NCBI GenBank assembly: GCA_026709085.1
Contig: JAPOTR010000006.1
Span: 1 to 64,000 of the forward strand
Source of the DNA: Cyanobacteria bacterium MAG CAR3_bin_5
GTDB taxonomy: Bacteria > Cyanobacteriota > Cyanobacteriia > PCC-6307 > Cyanobiaceae
DNA length: 64,000 bases
Reading direction: 5' to 3'
Shown one piece after another: positions 36,320 through 54,712 of the stretch. How positions within the stretch are numbered: position 1 is the first letter of the stretch; every line of letters starts with the position of its first letter. The translations under genes were made by a program, and so were the position numbers. Under the pieces are notes generated by a model that was not told where the DNA came from, searched no databases, and saw only the letters and a list, made by a program, of their open reading frames with translations.

Positions 36320-37348
36320 TCAGGACTCCGGGTGACCCATGGCGCGCTTCATGAACACTTCGGGATCAGCACGCCACTGGCTATAGCCAATGCGCCGGTG
36401 ATCCGTCAGCCAGTCCAGCTTCCGGCTGAGGCAGGCCGCCAGAGCAGTGTTGCCACGGTCCAGGGCAAAGCCGCCCAGTTCCTGGGCAGGATCAAGGACA
36501 CTGATGGCCAGCCGCCCGCCGGATTCATGGCTGGCGTCCCGATTGCCGATCTCGCCACGGGCAATCCCGTCAAGACTGCCGTCAGAGACCATGGCCAGCA
36601 ACTGCATCTCGTCCGTCCCGTAGATAATCTCCGGTTTATCGGCCGATGGATTGGATAATTTTGTGCGATCAGCGAGAGCCGGGCTTCTTCGGGATGCCGT
36701 AATCAGCCAATCGTCACTGCCGTCCGCCACAACCAGCCCGCGGGGGGTTTCCACGTGGACGCCCTTGGCCAACCGACCATCGGGCCGGGTCAATCCCGTG
36801 AGCGCCAGCAGGCGATGCTCACCCGTGGTTCCCGCCAGGGCGCCAATCCGCGCCGCGCCGTCCAACCGGTCGTAGCTGGAGAACCGCTCCACGTCAGCAG
36901 CCCGCACCAACAGGGATTGGCGGAAGGCGATATGGCCGGAGGTGAAGGTGACCACAGTGTCTCCGGTAGCATTGCGGGTGCGGGAGTCCAGAATTGTGAT
37001 GCCGCCGCCGACAAGATCAAACTCCGGCTCGGCGGCCCGTAGCCAGATACCGGGCCAGTCGCCAATGGCCCGGCGCGAAAACGTCAGCCCTGCCCCATCC
37101 ATGGCTTCCAGGGCATCCAGCAGGTCCGCTTCATAGCCCCGATGCTGATGAAATTCCGGTGAGCCCGGCCGGGGATCGGCGCTATAGCTCACAGGCCGGA
37201 AATCGGCAAAGAAGCCTACGTTCAACACAGTGCCCGGGGGCGTGCAGGGTCGATGATCGGCAAATACGGGCTGCCACCAGCCCAGGCCCATGTTGACGAT
37301 CCCTGTCAAGCCCAGGGCGAGCAAATGGGGCAGCTTATCCCACGGCAT
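36320..37348 (-). CDS. Periplasmic solute-binding protein (family 3-like), 5' end fused to an IS5 relic
   Basis: About 342 residues. A signal peptide (LLALGLTGIVNMGLGWW then QPVFA) precedes a family-3 binding domain: GYEADLLDALEAM, FDLVGGGITI, ARIGALAGTTGEHRL, DGIARGEIGNRD. Such proteins deliver amino acids or similar ligands to ABC transporters or sensors; no permease is adjacent. The frame continues upstream to 37480 through sequence matching an IS5 transposase N-terminus, so the Met at 37348 and its next five residues (MPWDKL) seem to derive from the transposase. The native start was probably replaced. Confidence 0.7.
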   Translation of the reverse strand: MPWDKLPHLLALGLTGIVNMGLGWWQPVFADHRPCTPPGTVLNVGFFADFRPVSYSADPRPGSPEFHQHRGYEADLLDALEAMDGAGLTFSRRAIGDWPGIWLRAAEPEFDLVGGGITILDSRTRNATGDTVVTFTSGHIAFRQSLLVRAADVERFSSYDRLDGAARIGALAGTTGEHRLLALTGLTRPDGRLAKGVHVETPRGLVVADGSDDWLITASRRSPALADRTKLSNPSADKPEIIYGTDEMQLLAMVSDGSLDGIARGEIGNRDASHESGGRLAISVLDPAQELGGFALDRGNTALAACLSRKLDWLTDHRRIGYSQWRADPEVFMKRAMGHPES

Positions 37349-37480
37349 CAGACCCTCCATCCGCTCCAGAAACAACTCCCGCCCCGTCTCGTGCTTCTTG
37401 CTCCCGTACTCAGGGTCCGCAAAGCTCCTCTCCATGCTCCCCATCTCCACAAGACTCCAATTATTCCCCAATCCTGCCAT
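37331..37480 (-). mobile_element. IS5-family transposase N-terminal relic
   Basis: On the minus strand the frame reads MERSFADPEYGSKKHETGRE then LFLERMEGLMPWDKL, the typical N-terminal 35 residues of IS5-group transposases. The rest of the transposase and any terminal inverted repeats are not present here; the reading frame runs on into the solute-binding protein. Confidence 0.7.
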
Positions 37481-37556
37481 GGGGAAGGGACTTCTTCAGA
37501 GATGCCTTGGATTTCCTCCCCACTGCCGATTCAATTATGCAACAATTTGTAACGTG

Positions 37557-37570
37557 CCCCCCCCCCCCCC
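37557..37570. repeat. C14 homopolymer upstream of the autotransporter gene
   Basis: Fourteen consecutive C ending 48 bases before the ATG of the subtilase gene. In other bacteria such tracts near promoters change length by slippage and alter expression; whether the promoter is here is not clear. Confidence 0.85.
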
Positions 37571-37618
37571 GCAAGGTGGCCAGATCTGAAACTTGAGATT
37601 CACCAAGTGGCCTCTCCC

Positions 37619-39819
37619 ATGTCTTCTGTTCATCGCGCTCTGCTGGCCTTACCCCTTGTTTTGCTGGCAGCCTGCGGTGGCGGGGGGGGGGGGCAGATAA
37701 CTCTACTTCCTCTCAACTTGATACCTGCTTCAAGGTACACGGCGGCGGTTGCCTGACCAATGCCGAGCTTGAGGAAAGGGCGCAGCAAGAAACAGAAAGT
37801 CTAAAACAGATAAGCCATCGCAGAATCGATGCAGTTTGGGATGAAGAGGCTGCTAATGCCGTAAAATGGCCTGCCGCACAAATCAATGCTTACCGGGCAG
37901 AGGCGAATCTTCGTCTGACCCATGGGCCTACGGACGCTTTAGGTGAAGAGGTCACCATTGGATTTATCGATACCGGCATCCACGAAAATCATGAAGCATT
38001 TGATTATGTGTCTGTTACGGAAGAATTTCTTGCCGGCGCAGTTAATGAGGATCTGGATGAGCAGTCTCACGGTACTGCTGTTGCCAGCATTGCAGTGGGT
38101 GATGATATAAATACACTTTTCTCAGACCATGGAAATACCAATATAAACGTCAAGATGTTTGCAATTCCTCTTGGAGATGGTAGTGGCGATTACACACCCA
38201 TAAACCTCAATCAGCTCGCGGCGGCTAACTTTGGCGATGCAGCCCTTTTTAGACATGTCCTCAATCAAGATCTCGATATTTTGAATCTCTCTTTTGGATA
38301 CAACGGCGGCATTGAGAACTACAGCGAGCAAGACCTGCGCAGCAATTACGGGAGAACCATTGCAGCCCTCGCCCAGGAAGGCAGGCAGGAGAAGACAATC
38401 CTTGTCTATGCTGCTGGCAATGCAGGTCGTGAAGCCAGGATCCACTCCCTTTCACCTGAGATTGGTGCTGGGCTTGTTGCTTATATGGAGGAGCTCCAAG
38501 GCCATTCCATAGCGGTTGTCAGCACTGGAGAAGACGGCAAGATATCGAACTTCTCCAATCGCTGCGGAATCGCTGCGGATTTTTGCATTGCCGCACCAGG
38601 AGAATTGCTTCTTGCAGCGACTCATACCATCGGAGTCAGAGATCTATATGGTCTATCTCAAGGAACTTCTTTTGCGGCCCCCATGGTCAGCGGGGGCTTA
38701 ATTGCCATGAAAAAACTGTTCCGAGACCAACTCACCAACGAGCAATTGGTATCCCGCCTCTTTAGAACAGCCAACGATGACGGCATCTATGCCAATTCAG
38801 CCATCTATGGCCATGGATTGATGGATCTGGGCGCCGCCACCAATCCCTGGGGCACCCCGGCGTTCATGGGCGCCAGCGGCGCCGCACTCCCAATCTCTTC
38901 CACCTCCCTGACGCTGGGCGCCCCGTTCGGTGACGGTCTTGCCAATGCCTTGGCTTCCCGTGAAGTTGTAGCTTTTGATTCCCTGGGGGCTCCTTTCTGG
39001 TTCGAGGCCGCCAGCTTTACCGGTCTCTCCGAAGGCGCTTCCCTCGCCACCCGCCTCAATGACTTCCTCCACCCCGCTCAACTTCGCTCCATCCCTGAAA
39101 CCTGGCAGTTCAATCTCAAAGAGAACGCCACGGCCACAGAAATTGGCCATCTTGCCCTCGCCAACGGGGCTTCACGCCTCACCATAGCCGGCCCCCAGGG
39201 AGTTTCCGCCATGCTTTTCCAGGATCCCCGAGAGCTTGAAGGGCTGACTCTCGCCTGTACACCCAGGACTTTTGACGCCTTCACCGTGGAAGCCGGCTAC
39301 CTCAACGAACACCAATCCCTCTTGGGCAGCCACGGCGAAGGCGCCGGGGGTCGGTTCTCCGGTGAGACCCTCTTCCTCGGCGCCGGGTTGAACGTCACGG
39401 CCGGGAACTGGCAGTTGGCGGCACAGGGGGAAGTTGGCCACGTGACCCCCGCTGTTGCCCACAGCCAATTCATCAAGGAGATCTCCTCCCTCTCCACCAG
39501 CTCCTTCCGTCTGGCCGCCAGTCGGCCATTTGCAAACGGCAGCGCGTTGCACTTCTCCCTGAGTCAGCCTCTCAGAGTGGAGAGTGGTTCCTTTACCCAC
39601 AACCTGGTGGCTAGCGGCGCCCATGCCCTCTCCCTGGATCAAGCCGTCTCCGATCCCCTTGCCCCCCAGGGCCGTCAGTTGGATCTCACCGCCCGGCTGG
39701 ACCTACCCTGGTTGGGAGGTGATCTCTCCCTCGGCGCCACACGCAGCGCCCAGCCCCGCCATCAGCAAAGCGCTGCACCGGAGTGGACCCTCTTCACCGG
39801 CTACCGCTCCACTTGGTGA
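37619..39819 (+). pseudogene. S8 subtilase autotransporter lipoprotein, out of frame at a G12 tract (phase-variable or decayed)
   Basis: From ATG 37619 a lipoprotein signal reads RALLALPLVLLAAC followed by glycines encoded by G12 (37682-37693), and the frame then stops at 37758-37760. The rest of the protein continues in another frame from 37693 without a stop to 39819: DNSTSSQLDTCFKVHGGG, then a subtilisin domain with Asp in GFIDTGIHENH, His in SHGTAVASIAVG and Ser in QGTSFAAPMVSGG, then a beta-barrel-like C-terminal domain ending FTGYRSTW with a terminal aromatic. With 10 or 13 G the gene would be an intact protein of about 730 residues, probably secreted through its own barrel to the cell surface. 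Confidence 0.85.
37682..37693. repeat. G12 tract inside the lipoprotein signal region
   Basis: Twelve consecutive G immediately after the lipobox cysteine codon and GGT GGC. The tract sets the reading frame of the subtilase autotransporter: 12 is out of frame, 10 or 13 would be in frame. Confidence 0.9.
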
Positions 39820-45873: not shown

Positions 45874-46650
45874 CTATGGGCCAGCCTTGCCAAACACATG
45901 TTGGCGGTGCCAGGCCAGGTGGGTCTGGTGTCTGGACGTGACGGGGATGGACTGTTGCCAGCGCAGTTCAGCCTGGGCTGCCTGGCTGAGGCGGGGGGAA
46001 AACCGTGGCTGACCAGCCTCGTCGAAGGTGACCAGGCCGCGATCAAAGGCGGCATCCCAGAGGGCGGAGAGCAGCAGGCCGTTATGCACGTCCAGCCTGG
46101 CGGCGTCCGTCCTGCAATGTTTCCAGGGAATGATGTGGGAAGCCCGCAGCAGGTCTGGATCGCTGATGCCGGTGAGGGGGCAGCAGCCCTGCCAGTACTC
46201 CATGAGGCTGGCGCGGAAAATGTCCTGACCGATGCGCTGAACCACCAACCGCTCGGCCTCAGTTGTGCGGGGCAGGCCACGAACCTGAGCCGCAAACTGC
46301 TGCAACGGCGCATCGGAGAGGCTGGCGGAGAGGGCATAGACCCGTGGCAGCACTCCATAGAGGGCGCCAAGGTTGGAGAAGCTGTAGCGGGCCAGACCAG
46401 GGCCGGGCATGGCGGTGGGGGCGAGGCCAACGGCCTCAACGACTCCGCCATGATCCAGGGCCAGGAACCAAGGCCCGTGGTCTCCAGCGGCGGCCAAGGA
46501 CAGGGTCCCCGGAACGGTGGTGGAGGCGAAAGCGACCCAGCCCTCGCTGGCTGACGCCATGGGCCGACGAAACCCGTGCTGCCATGCGGCCTTCTCACAC
46601 TCCTGGCGGACAATAAAGGATTGGGGCGCCTGGACCATGGGTGTGCTCAT
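45874..46650 (-). CDS. HNH endonuclease
   Basis: A 258-residue protein. The C-terminal part (about 165-240) is an HNH domain of the HNH_2 type: LMEYWQGCCPLTG, DLLRASHIIPWKHC and DVHNGLLLSALWDAAFDRGL, with both cysteines and the central His-Asn. The N-terminal 150 residues are unlike any family I recognise. The ATG at 46650 is preferred; the frame is open to 46731. It opens the defence-rich segment and is divergent from the ATPase gene at 46757, so a shared regulatory region is likely. Confidence 0.82.
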   Translation of the reverse strand: MSTPMVQAPQSFIVRQECEKAAWQHGFRRPMASASEGWVAFASTTVPGTLSLAAAGDHGPWFLALDHGGVVEAVGLAPTAMPGPGLARYSFSNLGALYGVLPRVYALSASLSDAPLQQFAAQVRGLPRTTEAERLVVQRIGQDIFRASLMEYWQGCCPLTGISDPDLLRASHIIPWKHCRTDAARLDVHNGLLLSALWDAAFDRGLVTFDEAGQPRFSPRLSQAAQAELRWQQSIPVTSRHQTHLAWHRQHVFGKAGP

Positions 46651-46756
46651 CAGTGCAACGGCCTCATCAACATCCTGGGCCTGTGGATCGTGTGGGGGAA
46701 TGCCTGGACACAGGCTCCAGCAATGTGGCACACTTCAGATCCGATCAGACAACGCC

Positions 46757-47908
46757 ATGGGTGGCGAACTGCCACTGCCCAGCCTCTCCATCTCCGGTTT
46801 CCGGGGATTTCCGAACCTCTCGATTCCCCAACTGGGCCGCGTGACCCTGTTGACGGGGCGCAACGGGGTTGGCAAAACGACGGTGCTGGATGCCATACGC
46901 ATCTATGCCGCAGCCACGTATGATACCTCCTGGCCCCTGTCTACTCTGCTGGCGGACAGGCTGGGACAGCAGGACGAATGGAGAGAGGGTCTGGACGAGG
47001 ATGGGGGCAAGGTGCTCGTCGCGGACTACACCGGTCTGTTCCATGGCCGCAGCTTTCCCCCTGGGCAACCCATCTCCATTGGCCCGGAGAATGACGAGAA
47101 CAACGTCCAGCTTGATGTGTATCAGGCAGGAAGTTTGTCACAGGAAGAGGACGAGAAACTAATTCTCTCACTTTCTCGCATGGAAGACACAGATATTCTA
47201 CCTCTCTTGGTTACTTTTAAAGAGCGTCCCAAGTATCTTTTACCTTGGATAACCAGGAGAGAATATACTAGGTTATCAATGCGCAAACGTCTTTGGAGAA
47301 TGATGGACGACGATAACAAGCAGTCACCAGAGAAGCTTAACTGTGTATCTATCGGCCCCAATTTACCAAATAACGAAGATCTAGTTGAATTTATTGATAG
47401 AGTTGCATTAACTGAAGAAGATCATAAACCGAAAGAAACTCTAGAGCTTATTTATGAAGGCAACATCTATGGAATTGCCGTAATTGGCAGAGGTGAAAGG
47501 TCTCGGCCTCGCGTTATGGTGAAGTTATCAGAGCAAGGAGCCCGTGCCCCCTTGAAAAGTCTGGGTGACGGGGTGACGCGCTTTTTTGGGATTGCTGCTG
47601 GTTTGCTGAAGAGCCGTGATGGCATTCTCCTCATTGATGAGGTGGAAAATGGAATTCACTATTCTGTTCACGAAAGACTTTGGAAAATGATCCTCGAAGC
47701 TGCCCATAAATATAATATCCAGGTGGTAGCAACGACCCATAGTCGAGACACAATTGTTGGTTTTGCAAAAGCTATACGAAATTCAAAAACAGAGAATACT
47801 CATTCCGCTCTCGTAAGAATTGAAGAAAAAGGAGAGAATGCTCAAGCTGTAGAATACAGTGAAGAAGAAATAGATACAGCGTCTCGATATTATATTGAAA
47901 TGAGGTAG
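46757..47908 (+). CDS. AAA (SMC/OLD-like) ATPase of an ATPase-TOPRIM pair
   Basis: A 383-residue ATPase. The N-terminus SISGFRGFPNLSIPQLGRV leads to Walker A GRNGVGKTT (about 34-42). Near the C-terminus are a signature-like SLGDGVTRFFGIAAGLLKS, Walker B ILLIDEVENGIHYS (about 290) and the switch-His segment VVATTHSRDTI. This is the AAA_15/OLD ATPase type found in OLD, Gabija- and PARIS-like defence. The first 400 bases are GC-rich and the rest AT-rich. Four bases after its stop lies the TOPRIM-type gene. The ATG at 46757 starts the conserved region. Confidence 0.82.
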   Translation: MGGELPLPSLSISGFRGFPNLSIPQLGRVTLLTGRNGVGKTTVLDAIRIYAAATYDTSWPLSTLLADRLGQQDEWREGLDEDGGKVLVADYTGLFHGRSFPPGQPISIGPENDENNVQLDVYQAGSLSQEEDEKLILSLSRMEDTDILPLLVTFKERPKYLLPWITRREYTRLSMRKRLWRMMDDDNKQSPEKLNCVSIGPNLPNNEDLVEFIDRVALTEEDHKPKETLELIYEGNIYGIAVIGRGERSRPRVMVKLSEQGARAPLKSLGDGVTRFFGIAAGLLKSRDGILLIDEVENGIHYSVHERLWKMILEAAHKYNIQVVATTHSRDTIVGFAKAIRNSKTENTHSALVRIEEKGENAQAVEYSEEEIDTASRYYIEMR

Positions 47909-50523: not shown

Positions 50524-53500
50524 TCAAAGCCCCAGATCCGCAAATCCCCCGCTGGCCTCCAATTCATCCCACGCCGCCAACACCAGCCGCCGGGTGCGGT
50601 ATTCGCCGTGGGCCTTGATTTCCTTTTCCTTCAGCCCACGGAAGGTTTCCGAGGGATAATCGGCGCCCATCACGTCAGCGGGATCCAGGATATAGCGGAG
50701 ATCATCACGGCTGAGGCCGTAGGCGCGAGCATAGAAGGCATCCAGCTCAGCCCGCAGCAGGGCGCGCCGATCCTCATCCCAGGAGAAGGGCGGGCCGCCA
50801 TAGCCCAGATCCTGGGCAAAGGGGGCCAGGGTGTGGGACGTGTAGGTGAGCGCCAACACCCTTGGCGTGACAAAGGCGAGGCGCTCAGGGCTATAGAAAC
50901 TGGGGGGCAGGATGGGGAATTGCTTGATAATGAAAAAATTCAGATTGGTTCCGCCAGCTTTCTGACGTGCAACGAAATCACAGGTGAGGGATGTAAGTGC
51001 GCCAAGTAGCCCTGGTATTTGCGGCAGGTGGTCGATTGACGGTAGCGTCACGACAAGGCTATTTCCAACTCCGCACCGGGGAGTAACGCTCGCAATCACC
51101 GTCCGCTCATTGGTTGCGTTAGTGATACCACGCCACCCCAGCAGCCAACTGCGATTCCAGCCCTTGGCATCCAGGCGGGCGGTTACCTCTTCGGCGGGGA
51201 CGTAGTAGCGGGGGGTGGGTTCCCAGTGGGGATTGGCCTTTTGGGCCGGGGTGGCGTCCATGGTTTTGCCCGTCTCCCCATAGGTGGCCCAACGGTGATC
51301 GAATTGGTGGATCATCTTGGCTTCATAGAGGGGCACGTAACGATGGGCTCGCGATGGTTCAGGGGCCAAGTCAAAGGATGTGCTGTTCGCCGTCGGCAGG
51401 TCCGGGGCAACGTTGGAATTGGCGCCTTCGGTCACCCAGCCGGTCCCGTTGCGGATCCAGCCGTCAGCGGACAAGGCGGCGGCGGTGCGGAACACGTGGC
51501 TGTCGTTCGACATGTCAAACAGTCTCGCAAAGCACACCCCCCATGGGTTGCCTTGGGGTCCCTTGCTGTCCTCCATCAACACCGGGACCTTGCCGTAGAT
51601 CCTGGCGGTCAACTCCCCGTCCTGGCGGGAGCGGAACACGGGGGCGGTGCGGGTGTTGGGGTTGATGGCGGCGATCTGCCGGGGCGAGAGGGTAAAGCTG
51701 CGCTCGGAGACAGCCAGTTGGTCGGGATCGGTGAGGAAGAAGGTGAACCGTGCCGCCGGCTCCCGCTGCCCCATGGTGAGCAGGCAGAATTTGAAGCTGC
51801 GATGCACGCTGGGGAAGAGCCCGGTGCGATTCTCGAAATCCACCAGGCTGGCCAGGCGATTTTGCTCCACCAGGTGGGCGAAGAACGGGGCGGTGGTGGC
51901 GTCGGTGGCCACACCCGTGGGCACAATCACCCCGGCGCGGACACGGCTGAGATTGGCCACCAACTCGGCAAACAAGGCAGTGGCGTCGGTGGCCACACCC
52001 GTGGGCACAATCACCCCGGCGCGGACACGGCTGAGATTGGCCACCAACTCGGCAAACAAGGCATAGGTGTTCACGTCGCCCCGGCCCGTGAAGGGGAAGC
52101 GCCCACCGTCAGTCACCCCCGGCACGTGGGCAAATTCGCTGACGGCCTCGGAGAGGCGCTTGGCCTGAAGAAAGTCGTCCCATAGCCCACGTCTGGCGCT
52201 GCCGACGGGCTCAGCGGCCAACGCCTTGAGGAGCCGATTCCGGGCGGCTTTGTTGGGGGCGTCGGCAATCTCGTCACTGCGGCTGGCGAAAAACTCCTGC
52301 TCCTGCAACTTGATGCGCTCCCACGGCGGATTCCCCAGCACCACGTCAAAGCCGCCTTGCTCCATCACGTCGGGAAACTCCAGGGGCCAGTGGAAGGCGC
52401 GGGCGGCGGCAGCGGCTTGGCGGGCCGGCTCCAGGGCGGGCGGCTCCTGGTCCCTCAGGGTTTGCCACAACTCGTTGGTGGTGGGTACCCCGGCGGCGTC
52501 GGTTTTGGGCAGCAGGAAGGCGGCCGCGTAGAGATCCGCGGCGGCCCTGGCCCGCCGGAAATCCGGTGTTTGGCGCAGATCCCGGAAGCGGCTGGCCTTG
52601 GCCTTGATTTGCCCCACCGTGTCTTCCCCCAGGGCGCGAAGGCGGGCAAACTTCAGCGCCAGGGGTTTCACGGCCGGCATCAGACCTTCCTGGTCCAGAG
52701 TGTCCAGGGCCAGGCTGCCCTGCCCTCTGTCCCTTACCTCCTGGTTGAGCTTCTTGCAGCGTTTGGCGGTGGCTTTGTGGTCGCCGGTCAGGGGTTTGTA
52801 GGCGGCGTCGGGAATGCCGTTTTCCAGCACGCTCAGATCAACCAGGCCCAGGAGGGCGTCGCCGCAGCGGATTTGGCCGTCCAGAAAGCCCAGGGGGAGG
52901 CCGGGGGTCACCGTCTCGATCCAGAGGGCCACACGGGCGAGTTCCACGGCCATGGGGTTCTTGTCCACCCCGTGGAGGCAGCAGCGGGCCACGTCCCGCA
53001 GGGCGGGGCGAAAGTCCGCCAATCCCGGGGCGCCGTCGGCGCGGATGCGGGCCAGGCGGGTGGCCAGGCGGCGGGCGGCGGCCAGCAGGAAGTGGCCCGA
53101 ACCGCAGGCCGGGTCCAGGATGGAGAGCTTGAGGAGCGCCGCGGCGGGGTCGGCGGCTGCCGCTTCGGTGCTGTCCAGAACCGGGTCAAGGGCGCTGTCC
53201 AGCAACGCCTGAACCAGGCTGTCCGGGGTGTAGTAGGAACCCGTGGTTTTGCGCTGGTTGCCTTTCCGTTCGCTGGCCTCGGCGGCAAACACCAGGCTGC
53301 GGCCGTCGTCCGCCAGTTGGGGTTGGAGTTCCAGCAGGGATTCATACACGGAGCCCAGTTCTTCGGTTTCCATGGCCCGCCAGTTGACCGGCGCCCGACC
53401 GGTGCGCTCCGGTAGCCACGCCAAATGCCAGAGGGCCGCCATGAAGGCGTTGTTGGGCAGACGGACCGTTTCCAGGCGGGGCAACTGGCGGGGGGCGAAG

Positions 53501-54576
53501 AGGCCGCCAAGGGCGGGCAGGGCCAGGCGCTCTTCCCCCTCAGCCAGGGCGCGGAACACCACTTTCATGCCTTCGTAGCGGTCGTGATGCCTGTCCCAAC
53601 TGGCGCGGCGCTGGCATTGACGGCGCAGGGTGGTGAGGCTATAGCCGTCCCTGTAGAGCTGGCGGGCGGCGGCTGTGCTCCGGGCGGGGTGGAGCAAATT
53701 GCGGTCCTCCGCCACCATCAGGAAGATGAGCCGATACACCAGCCGCAGGAGTTCGTTGAACCAGTCCGTCAGGGGGACATGGCCGGTTTGCAACTGGCTG
53801 GCCAGATCCCGGTTGGCGCTCAGAACACCGGACCCCAACACCTTGAGGGCCTGCCGCACCTGGGCCGCCAGTCGGTCCCGGGCGGCTTCCCCGAGTCGGG
53901 CGCCTTCCTCGCGCCAATGCTCCAGCGGGCAATCCGTTGCCGGAGCGCCGGACTGCCCAAAACGGGTGCGGTGGATCAGCAGCCAGAACGCCGCGAAGGA
54001 GGCGGCGTCTTCGTTGGCGAACATCCCCTCCAGATCGGCCTCGATGTGGGCCGGTCGGGTGAGGGAGGCGTTGTCCCGCAGCAGCCGCATCCGGCGGCCG
54101 TTGGTCACCAGGCCCCAGAGGGCGTGGTCGTGATGGTTGAGCCAATCCTGGAGGGCAAAGGCGGGGGAGCGGGAGCGATCCGTGGAGAGGGTGGGGCTGC
54201 GGCGCTCCAGGTCCTCCCCTGGCGGCGCCACCACCACAGGCACCCGCTCCCCGGCAACGAAAGACACAACCCCGTCAGTTGGAGCAAGGTCGTGGAAGCC
54301 GAAGGTCTCCGCCAGAAAATCCCGGACAAAGCGCTGCGTGGCCGCCAGGGAAGGATAGTGACGCCGGGCAAACTCGTCCCAATGGGACTGGCCCACCCGG
54401 AAGGCCGTGGCGATGTCCTCGCGAATCGTCAGCCCTTTGCGGACGCTGTAGCTGGCGCGGGTGGCGGAATCGTCCCCGGGGTCGCTGATCCGGGCCACCA
54501 TGGCGGGGGTGAGGAGGTTGCCCTCCAGGTGGAGGAAGGGCCAAGCCCCCGTCTCGGTGGCAGGTTGACGGACCAT
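50524..54576 (-). CDS. Eco57I-type DNA methyltransferase of a DISARM-like locus
   Basis: A 1350-residue protein. A long N-terminal region (about 1-430) precedes the N6-adenine methylase core: SYYTPDSLVQALLDSAL, SAM motif LDPACGSGHFLLAA (about 485), DKNPMAVELARVALWIE, and catalytic motif VVLGNPPWERIK (about 755). The C-terminal region is the target-recognition part. This is the layout of Eco57I/PglX-like or DISARM DrmMI methylases. An 84-bp exact tandem duplication lies in the core. The ATG at 54576 is preferred over a TTG at 54585. It is third in the operon after the two helicases. Confidence 0.82.
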   Translation of the reverse strand: MVRQPATETGAWPFLHLEGNLLTPAMVARISDPGDDSATRASYSVRKGLTIREDIATAFRVGQSHWDEFARRHYPSLAATQRFVRDFLAETFGFHDLAPTDGVVSFVAGERVPVVVAPPGEDLERRSPTLSTDRSRSPAFALQDWLNHHDHALWGLVTNGRRMRLLRDNASLTRPAHIEADLEGMFANEDAASFAAFWLLIHRTRFGQSGAPATDCPLEHWREEGARLGEAARDRLAAQVRQALKVLGSGVLSANRDLASQLQTGHVPLTDWFNELLRLVYRLIFLMVAEDRNLLHPARSTAAARQLYRDGYSLTTLRRQCQRRASWDRHHDRYEGMKVVFRALAEGEERLALPALGGLFAPRQLPRLETVRLPNNAFMAALWHLAWLPERTGRAPVNWRAMETEELGSVYESLLELQPQLADDGRSLVFAAEASERKGNQRKTTGSYYTPDSLVQALLDSALDPVLDSTEAAAADPAAALLKLSILDPACGSGHFLLAAARRLATRLARIRADGAPGLADFRPALRDVARCCLHGVDKNPMAVELARVALWIETVTPGLPLGFLDGQIRCGDALLGLVDLSVLENGIPDAAYKPLTGDHKATAKRCKKLNQEVRDRGQGSLALDTLDQEGLMPAVKPLALKFARLRALGEDTVGQIKAKASRFRDLRQTPDFRRARAAADLYAAAFLLPKTDAAGVPTTNELWQTLRDQEPPALEPARQAAAAARAFHWPLEFPDVMEQGGFDVVLGNPPWERIKLQEQEFFASRSDEIADAPNKAARNRLLKALAAEPVGSARRGLWDDFLQAKRLSEAVSEFAHVPGVTDGGRFPFTGRGDVNTYALFAELVANLSRVRAGVIVPTGVATDATALFAELVANLSRVRAGVIVPTGVATDATTAPFFAHLVEQNRLASLVDFENRTGLFPSVHRSFKFCLLTMGQREPAARFTFFLTDPDQLAVSERSFTLSPRQIAAINPNTRTAPVFRSRQDGELTARIYGKVPVLMEDSKGPQGNPWGVCFARLFDMSNDSHVFRTAAALSADGWIRNGTGWVTEGANSNVAPDLPTANSTSFDLAPEPSRAHRYVPLYEAKMIHQFDHRWATYGETGKTMDATPAQKANPHWEPTPRYYVPAEEVTARLDAKGWNRSWLLGWRGITNATNERTVIASVTPRCGVGNSLVVTLPSIDHLPQIPGLLGALTSLTCDFVARQKAGGTNLNFFIIKQFPILPPSFYSPERLAFVTPRVLALTYTSHTLAPFAQDLGYGGPPFSWDEDRRALLRAELDAFYARAYGLSRDDLRYILDPADVMGADYPSETFRGLKEKEIKAHGEYRTRRLVLAAWDELEASGGFADLGL
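51896..52063. repeat. 84-bp exact tandem duplication in the methylase gene
   Basis: 51896-51979 and 51980-52063 are identical and duplicate 28 residues (ALFAELVANLSRVRAG, then VIVPTGVATDAT) in frame. The flanking protein reads naturally with a single copy. Confidence 0.95.
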
Positions 54577-54712
54577 GGCGCTCAAGCCTTGGGCGCAGGC
54601 AGTTGCCTGGCCTCACTGGCGGCGACGGCTTTGCCCAGCCTGGTCTCCGAGGTCATCGCGCCATGGGTCACGGGATCAGCAGGCCAGTTTAGGATCATGG
54701 GCCGGCCACGGC

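Follow-up and report, generated by a model that had tools for sequence, protein, structure and literature searches.

In the window (the whole stretch of 64,000 nucleotides that was analysed), the signal peptide of a predicted lipoprotein and a long subtilase frame meet one base out of register at a run of twelve G, which raises the question of whether this gene is decayed, miscounted in assembly or switched by changes in tract length. An earlier note on this DNA had proposed homopolymer switching of a surface subtilase, with G12 as the control and C14 in the leader. The source genome falls in the same genus as the sponge symbiont Candidatus Synechococcus spongiarum, and most work on simple-sequence phase variation concerns pathogens and commensals of vertebrates. 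A search of the open-access literature, outside which most subscription papers lie, found no paper joining phase variation with Candidatus Synechococcus spongiarum; as far as we found, tract switching has no report in a cyanobacterial partner of an animal, though it is well known in animal pathogens. The relatives compared were other members of the genus (G003–G007), not the same species, with G000 denoting the source genome; the genus members searched included contigs of Candidatus Synechococcus spongiarum SH4 and SP3, and the genome tract census was built from searches and sequence stretches.

Two tracts precede an intact protease frame

The locus is laid out as follows.

36320–37480, minus strand: neighbour gene of 386 aa, whose 91% orthologue in G005 marks the syntenic locus
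37537–37557, plus strand: putative upstream ATG start, with leader peptide MQQFVTC continuing into the C tract (codon comparison of four copies)
37557–37570, plus strand: C14 tract, proposed first slippage site (direct reading; motif recurrence; C9 in the syntenic relative)
37619–37675, plus strand: second ATG and lipoprotein signal peptide MSSVHRALLALPLVLLAAC with lipobox LAAC (translation; similar signals in family members)
37682–37693, plus strand: G12 tract directly after the lipobox, encoding poly-glycine, proposed second slippage site (direct reading)
37690–39819, plus strand: intact 709-codon frame of the mature subtilase and C-terminal beta domain (translation; TGA stop at 39817–39819)
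37942–38817, plus strand: Peptidase S8 domain (PF00082, E 1.9e-32)
37969, 38068 and 38668, plus strand: catalytic Asp, His and Ser, respectively (triad alignment)
39172–39810, plus strand: predicted outer-membrane barrel at the C-terminus, with about 12 long strands (AlphaFold2 model)

Direct reading found C14, the lipoprotein signal from ATG 37619, the G12 after the lipobox and the intact frame all where the earlier note had placed them, and the one-base mismatch at G12 between signal and protease frames was confirmed (37619 is 2 mod 3; 37690 is 1 mod 3). The protease frame opens at 37597, and its earliest possible start is GTG 38008, past residue 94, the catalytic Asp at 37969; no complete protease can therefore be started inside the mature frame. 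In the assembled sequence, a frame read from ATG 37537 breaks at both tracts and one read from ATG 37619 at G12. The gene as assembled is off, a state that is not secure, since runs of more than about 10 may be miscounted by at least one base.

The G/C runs in the window comprised five of length 7, four of 8, none of 9–11, one of 12 and one of 14, against a first-order Markov expectation per 64 kb of about 0.16 runs of at least 12 and about 0.02 of at least 14. Both C14 and G12 fall at the 5' end of the same gene, with 125 bases from the start of one to the start of the other. The arrangement fits a contingency locus: a tract beyond chance expectation, where a change in length shifts the frame of an intact gene. 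Elsewhere in the window, a perfect 84-bp tandem duplication (51896–52063) was seen in the region of a 1353-aa ORF (50524–54585, minus strand), and an AAA_21/AAA_15-type ATPase (46517–47908; Pfam name putative AbiEii toxin-like) is a possible defence gene.

The product is a predicted lipoprotein of the S8 family

The protein is predicted from its sequence to be a lipoprotein and an S8 subtilase. Besides the PF00082 match, residues D94, H127 and S327 were conserved in 43 homologues, and the short signal ended in a lipobox Cys, with lipoboxes also present in family members. An AlphaFold2 model from the 43 homologues reached a mean pLDDT of 86.7, superseding a poor first model from 14 sequences (pLDDT 56.7), and showed about 12 long strands in residues 495–707. 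The best PDB match of the protease domain was the autotransporter Ssp (8e7f; VIA-align Z 30.6, rmsd 3.3, 293 residues). No Pfam barrel or autotransporter model matched any of the 43 family members, and NCBIfam similarity to the EprS and fusolisin autotransporter models was weak, falling below cut-off for P0002. There was no barrel among the fold-search matches listed, and the protease domain fills this list, making it uninformative on the barrel. The autotransporter label rests on the predicted C-terminal beta region, which has no family match; of the intact triad and barrel claimed earlier, the triad was borne out and the barrel stands as a prediction.

The S8 lipoprotein family of sponge symbionts, which is unnamed, comprised 92 loci. 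Its homologues, at 32–58% identity, came from sponge-associated Acidobacteria, Nitrospirota, Proteobacteria and others; the great majority stem from metagenome bins of sponge-associated bacteria in several phyla (for many records the sponge origin is our reading of the record names), and matches in free-living marine bacteria were weaker and shorter. As a side observation, the family (L129–L207) is common to sponge-associated bacteria of many phyla and little found outside them; judged from sequence, it is possibly a shared sponge-adaptation gene spread by transfer. In nearly all homologues the glycines after the lipobox used mixed codons and formed no long tract, which ruled out a universal tract at this position.

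The C tract is probably translated

C14 had been taken for part of a leader outside the gene, a placement against which the upstream ATG 37537 (MQQFVTC) and the comparison of related copies suggest a tract inside the coding region. The leader codons before the C run in four S8 copies followed the pattern [M/V/L]-[Q/R]-[Q/R]-F-V-T-[C/S] (MQQFVTC in the window, VQRFVTC at the G005 syntenic locus, LQQFVTS in G003 and LRRFVTC in G000 C19), with the F, V and T codons varying at third positions only. The motif AACAA-N3/4-TANNN followed by a C run occurred at 13 places in the source genome, and its reversed control at none. Four related copies share this leader peptide ahead of the C tract, so that this tract, like the G tract, probably belongs to the coding sequence, and the two would stand in series. 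The proposal of G12 control with C14 in the leader was incomplete in this respect, the C tract probably being a second, upstream coding switch, and the locus is one of many.

Other roles for the C tract were considered. A promoter-spacer switch, with the tract between −35 and −10, was rejected, as no −10 element was seen behind the C tract in the window or the modules described below; what could be picked out by eye, in several modules of G000, was a sigma-70-like pair about 45 nt upstream. A known RNA element at the tract was likewise rejected, Rfam giving no match in six loci. Nor is a translated ORF claimed for the C-tract module in the FN3/Calx-beta copies of G000, where the copies' frames disagree and all three frames meet stops in some.

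Related copies differ in tract length and frame

The 91% orthologue of the neighbour gene lies on G005 C123, and upstream, in the same place, stand GTGCAACGTTTTGTAACGTG and C9, then ATGATCATGGGCCAG..., with the signal LLAGCGGGG. The syntenic tract is C9 in G005 C123 versus C14 in the window, so a fixed tract length in relatives, which the earlier note had named as a refuting outcome, was not what we found. The G005 C123 contig stops inside the glycine run; a break in the second tract is compatible with length heterogeneity without proving it.

In G003 C33 (C12), the ATG, tract, signal, lipobox and protease form one continuous frame of 1160 codons. In G000 C19 (C9), G005 C159 (C9) and G005 C90 (C11), the S8 frame is intact and the upstream start is out of frame; these three copies have no ATG, GTG or TTG in the signal frame between tract and signal core, and the C tract must therefore be translated in them. 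In G000 C20, the frame with ATG, signal and lipobox meets an S8-like frame (GDAELAERAREE...) out of register at G10. One of six tract-bearing S8 members, the window gene included, was in frame and five were not, counts that describe sequence states rather than expression states and depend on uncertain assembled tract lengths. The intact frames past the break argue against decay. A further observation was made in the S8 paralogue on G000 C19 (L333 around 1580), whose leader has adjacent homopolymers, C9 directly followed by A8.

Long tracts recur across the source genome

The source genome contained 36 C/G runs of at least 10 (15.2 per Mb), whereas 15 other genera of the family together had 1.7 per Mb; among members of the genus, density ranged from 0.6 to 15.2 per Mb, with few in G006 and G007. 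Runs of at least 12 were found at the 5' ends of genes for FN3/Calx-beta surface proteins (L059, L082) and of a barrel-like protein without Pfam match (L085). Further tract-bearing genes in G000 were as follows.

OprB porin: C17 at the 5' end
TonB receptor: G12 at the 5' end, in frame
GT2 glycosyltransferase: C13, no start in frame
FkbM methyltransferase: C12, in frame
Type ISP restriction enzyme (C21, L090 2781): C13, 49 nt before a start
DUF1156 DNA methylase (C11, L086 3552): C12, 21 nt before the start

The last two are candidate phase-variable methylation genes. Runs of C10 or G10 inside ArgDC, an aminotransferase, homoserine dehydrogenase and TyrRS were all in frame, and another adjoins HisRS. 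Gene class by tract length divided 13:0 versus 1:5 (Fisher p 0.0005), in a post hoc comparison of classes that we assigned, with copies partly non-independent; many G000 modules share flanks and are therefore not independent. Signal-bearing ORFs downstream of tracts numbered 11 on the C strand and 2 on the G strand.

Tract lengths also differed between genomes, at the syntenic locus and at the TonB receptor, whose orthologues carry G12 and G9, a difference of three that leaves both in frame. The relatives repeat the pattern: a lipoprotein starts 3 nt after C12 in SH4 (L310), another directly after C16 in G004 (L294), and internal tracts of 11–17 recur at matching gene classes in several independent assemblies. 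Runs of C20–C51 at contig edges in G004 (L289, L296, L297) and G005 (L283, L285) are probably sequencing artefacts; they were left out of the analysis and counsel care when tracts are counted in metagenome bins.

A repeated module accounts for about ten of the G000 tracts: the C run is followed after about 200 nt by a TATAAT-like box, then by an 8-bp tandem array and a gene. The gene directly after the array encodes an FN3/Calx-beta or barrel-like protein, and several contigs end in arrays (arrays at L085 2050–2530, L072 3319–3409, L089 1–60, L059 1250–1275 and L077 655–700). The array unit differs per group, for example CGCAGGAG x11.4, each unit of which holds a Shine-Dalgarno-like AGGAG. All genus members have a MutS, mostly full-length, and that of the source genome is intact; a mismatch-repair defect was thus rejected as the driver of slippage, and with MutS present, slippage rates need not be high.

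Switching and its alternatives

We consider it likely that the locus is a NalP-like phase-variable lipoprotein subtilase, a contingency gene in a sponge symbiont of the Candidatus Synechococcus spongiarum type. The observations behind this reading are the tracts, the frames, the intact protease frame and triad, the C-tract difference in a relative and the recurrence of tracts at gene classes genome-wide. Slipped-strand mispairing at the C tract, between the leader ATG 37537 and the signal peptide, would shift the frame, as would mispairing at the G tract after the lipobox, and the protease would then be made by only some cells. The product would be an S8 subtilase anchored by lipid and ending in a predicted outer-membrane barrel, and would work as meningococcal NalP does. 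Slippage would take place within the population, and the gene would be expressed to give a surface-exposed, active protease with a role in host contact. The homopolymer switching of a surface subtilase proposed earlier is the best-supported reading, with two tracts rather than G12 alone probable.

In an unlikely but serious alternative, the C tract tunes expression through leader length or transcription start, translation begins at 37619, and polymerase or ribosome slippage, which can occur at poly-G runs, gives some full-length protein in every cell. The normal short signal peptide from ATG 37619 agrees with this, as does the layout of the repeated G000 modules, where some 200 nt separate the C tract from the gene downstream, and a C tract just before the start in two methylase/restriction genes fits a leader role; however, translation of the tract in the three copies without a post-tract start, and leader F-V-T codons that change at third positions only, speak against it. 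It is improbable that the tracts are real but miscounted and the gene constitutively in frame. Short-read assembly is prone to error in runs over 10, and two relatives have very long C/G runs at contig edges, but the internal tracts recur at matching gene classes in independent assemblies, C10/G10 is in frame in four housekeeping genes whereas G10 in the S8 paralogue is out of frame, the five-base difference in the syntenic C tract exceeds usual miscounting, and the tracts exist whatever their exact count. Recent pseudogenization, in which slippage broke the gene and decay follows without selection for switching, is very improbable: the frame is broken as assembled, and the source genome's S8 paralogue on C9 also has no clear in-frame N-terminus, but the earlier argument against decay held, with 709 stop-free codons, a conserved triad and a well-modelled fold, and several paralogues and the syntenic relative are arranged alike with frames intact where readable.

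Under the switching reading, the window gene is best read as one of many candidate switch loci in the source genome, a contingency repertoire. We lean, by a narrower measure of confidence, towards a genus-wide repertoire of surface proteases, adhesin-like proteins, a porin, a TonB receptor, sugar-modifying enzymes and restriction/methylase genes, varied by C/G tracts and by 8-bp tandem arrays before FN3/Calx-beta genes, so that within-sponge populations would be mosaics of surface types. If this is true, such mosaics would exist as in pathogens of hosts with immune memory, yet the host is a sponge; surface mosaicism could be useful against innate-only host recognition, or against phages and grazing, and sponge symbiont recognition would be testable by tract genotyping.

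Comparison with known systems

Surface proteins, glycosyltransferases and restriction-modification genes are homopolymer contingency loci in Neisseria, Campylobacter and Helicobacter. The candidate loci described here resemble them in functional classes, tract lengths and 5' position (the pathogen side being general knowledge), but sit in a cyanobacterial symbiont of an animal. Ssp of Serratia marcescens, an S8 autotransporter, is the best structural and sequence match of the window protease domain, a match that covers this domain and not the barrel; Ssp is not known to be a lipoprotein or to be tract-switched. Within the S8 family of sponge symbionts, the window gene differs from nearly all other members in its long tract, the others having mixed glycine codons. 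The closest architectural parallel, NalP (AspA) of Neisseria meningitidis, is a subtilisin-like protease that is both lipoprotein and autotransporter, and its poly-C switch lies in the coding region, where slipped-strand mispairing shifts the frame (PMC5472700). The window gene belongs to another phylum, probably has two tracts in series and has a beta domain unmatched by the Pfam autotransporter model. The likeness is one of architecture: the window gene, too, is predicted to encode a subtilisin-like protease that is a lipoprotein and, judging from its predicted beta region, possibly an autotransporter, and a homopolymer tract likewise lies near the 5' end of its coding sequence.
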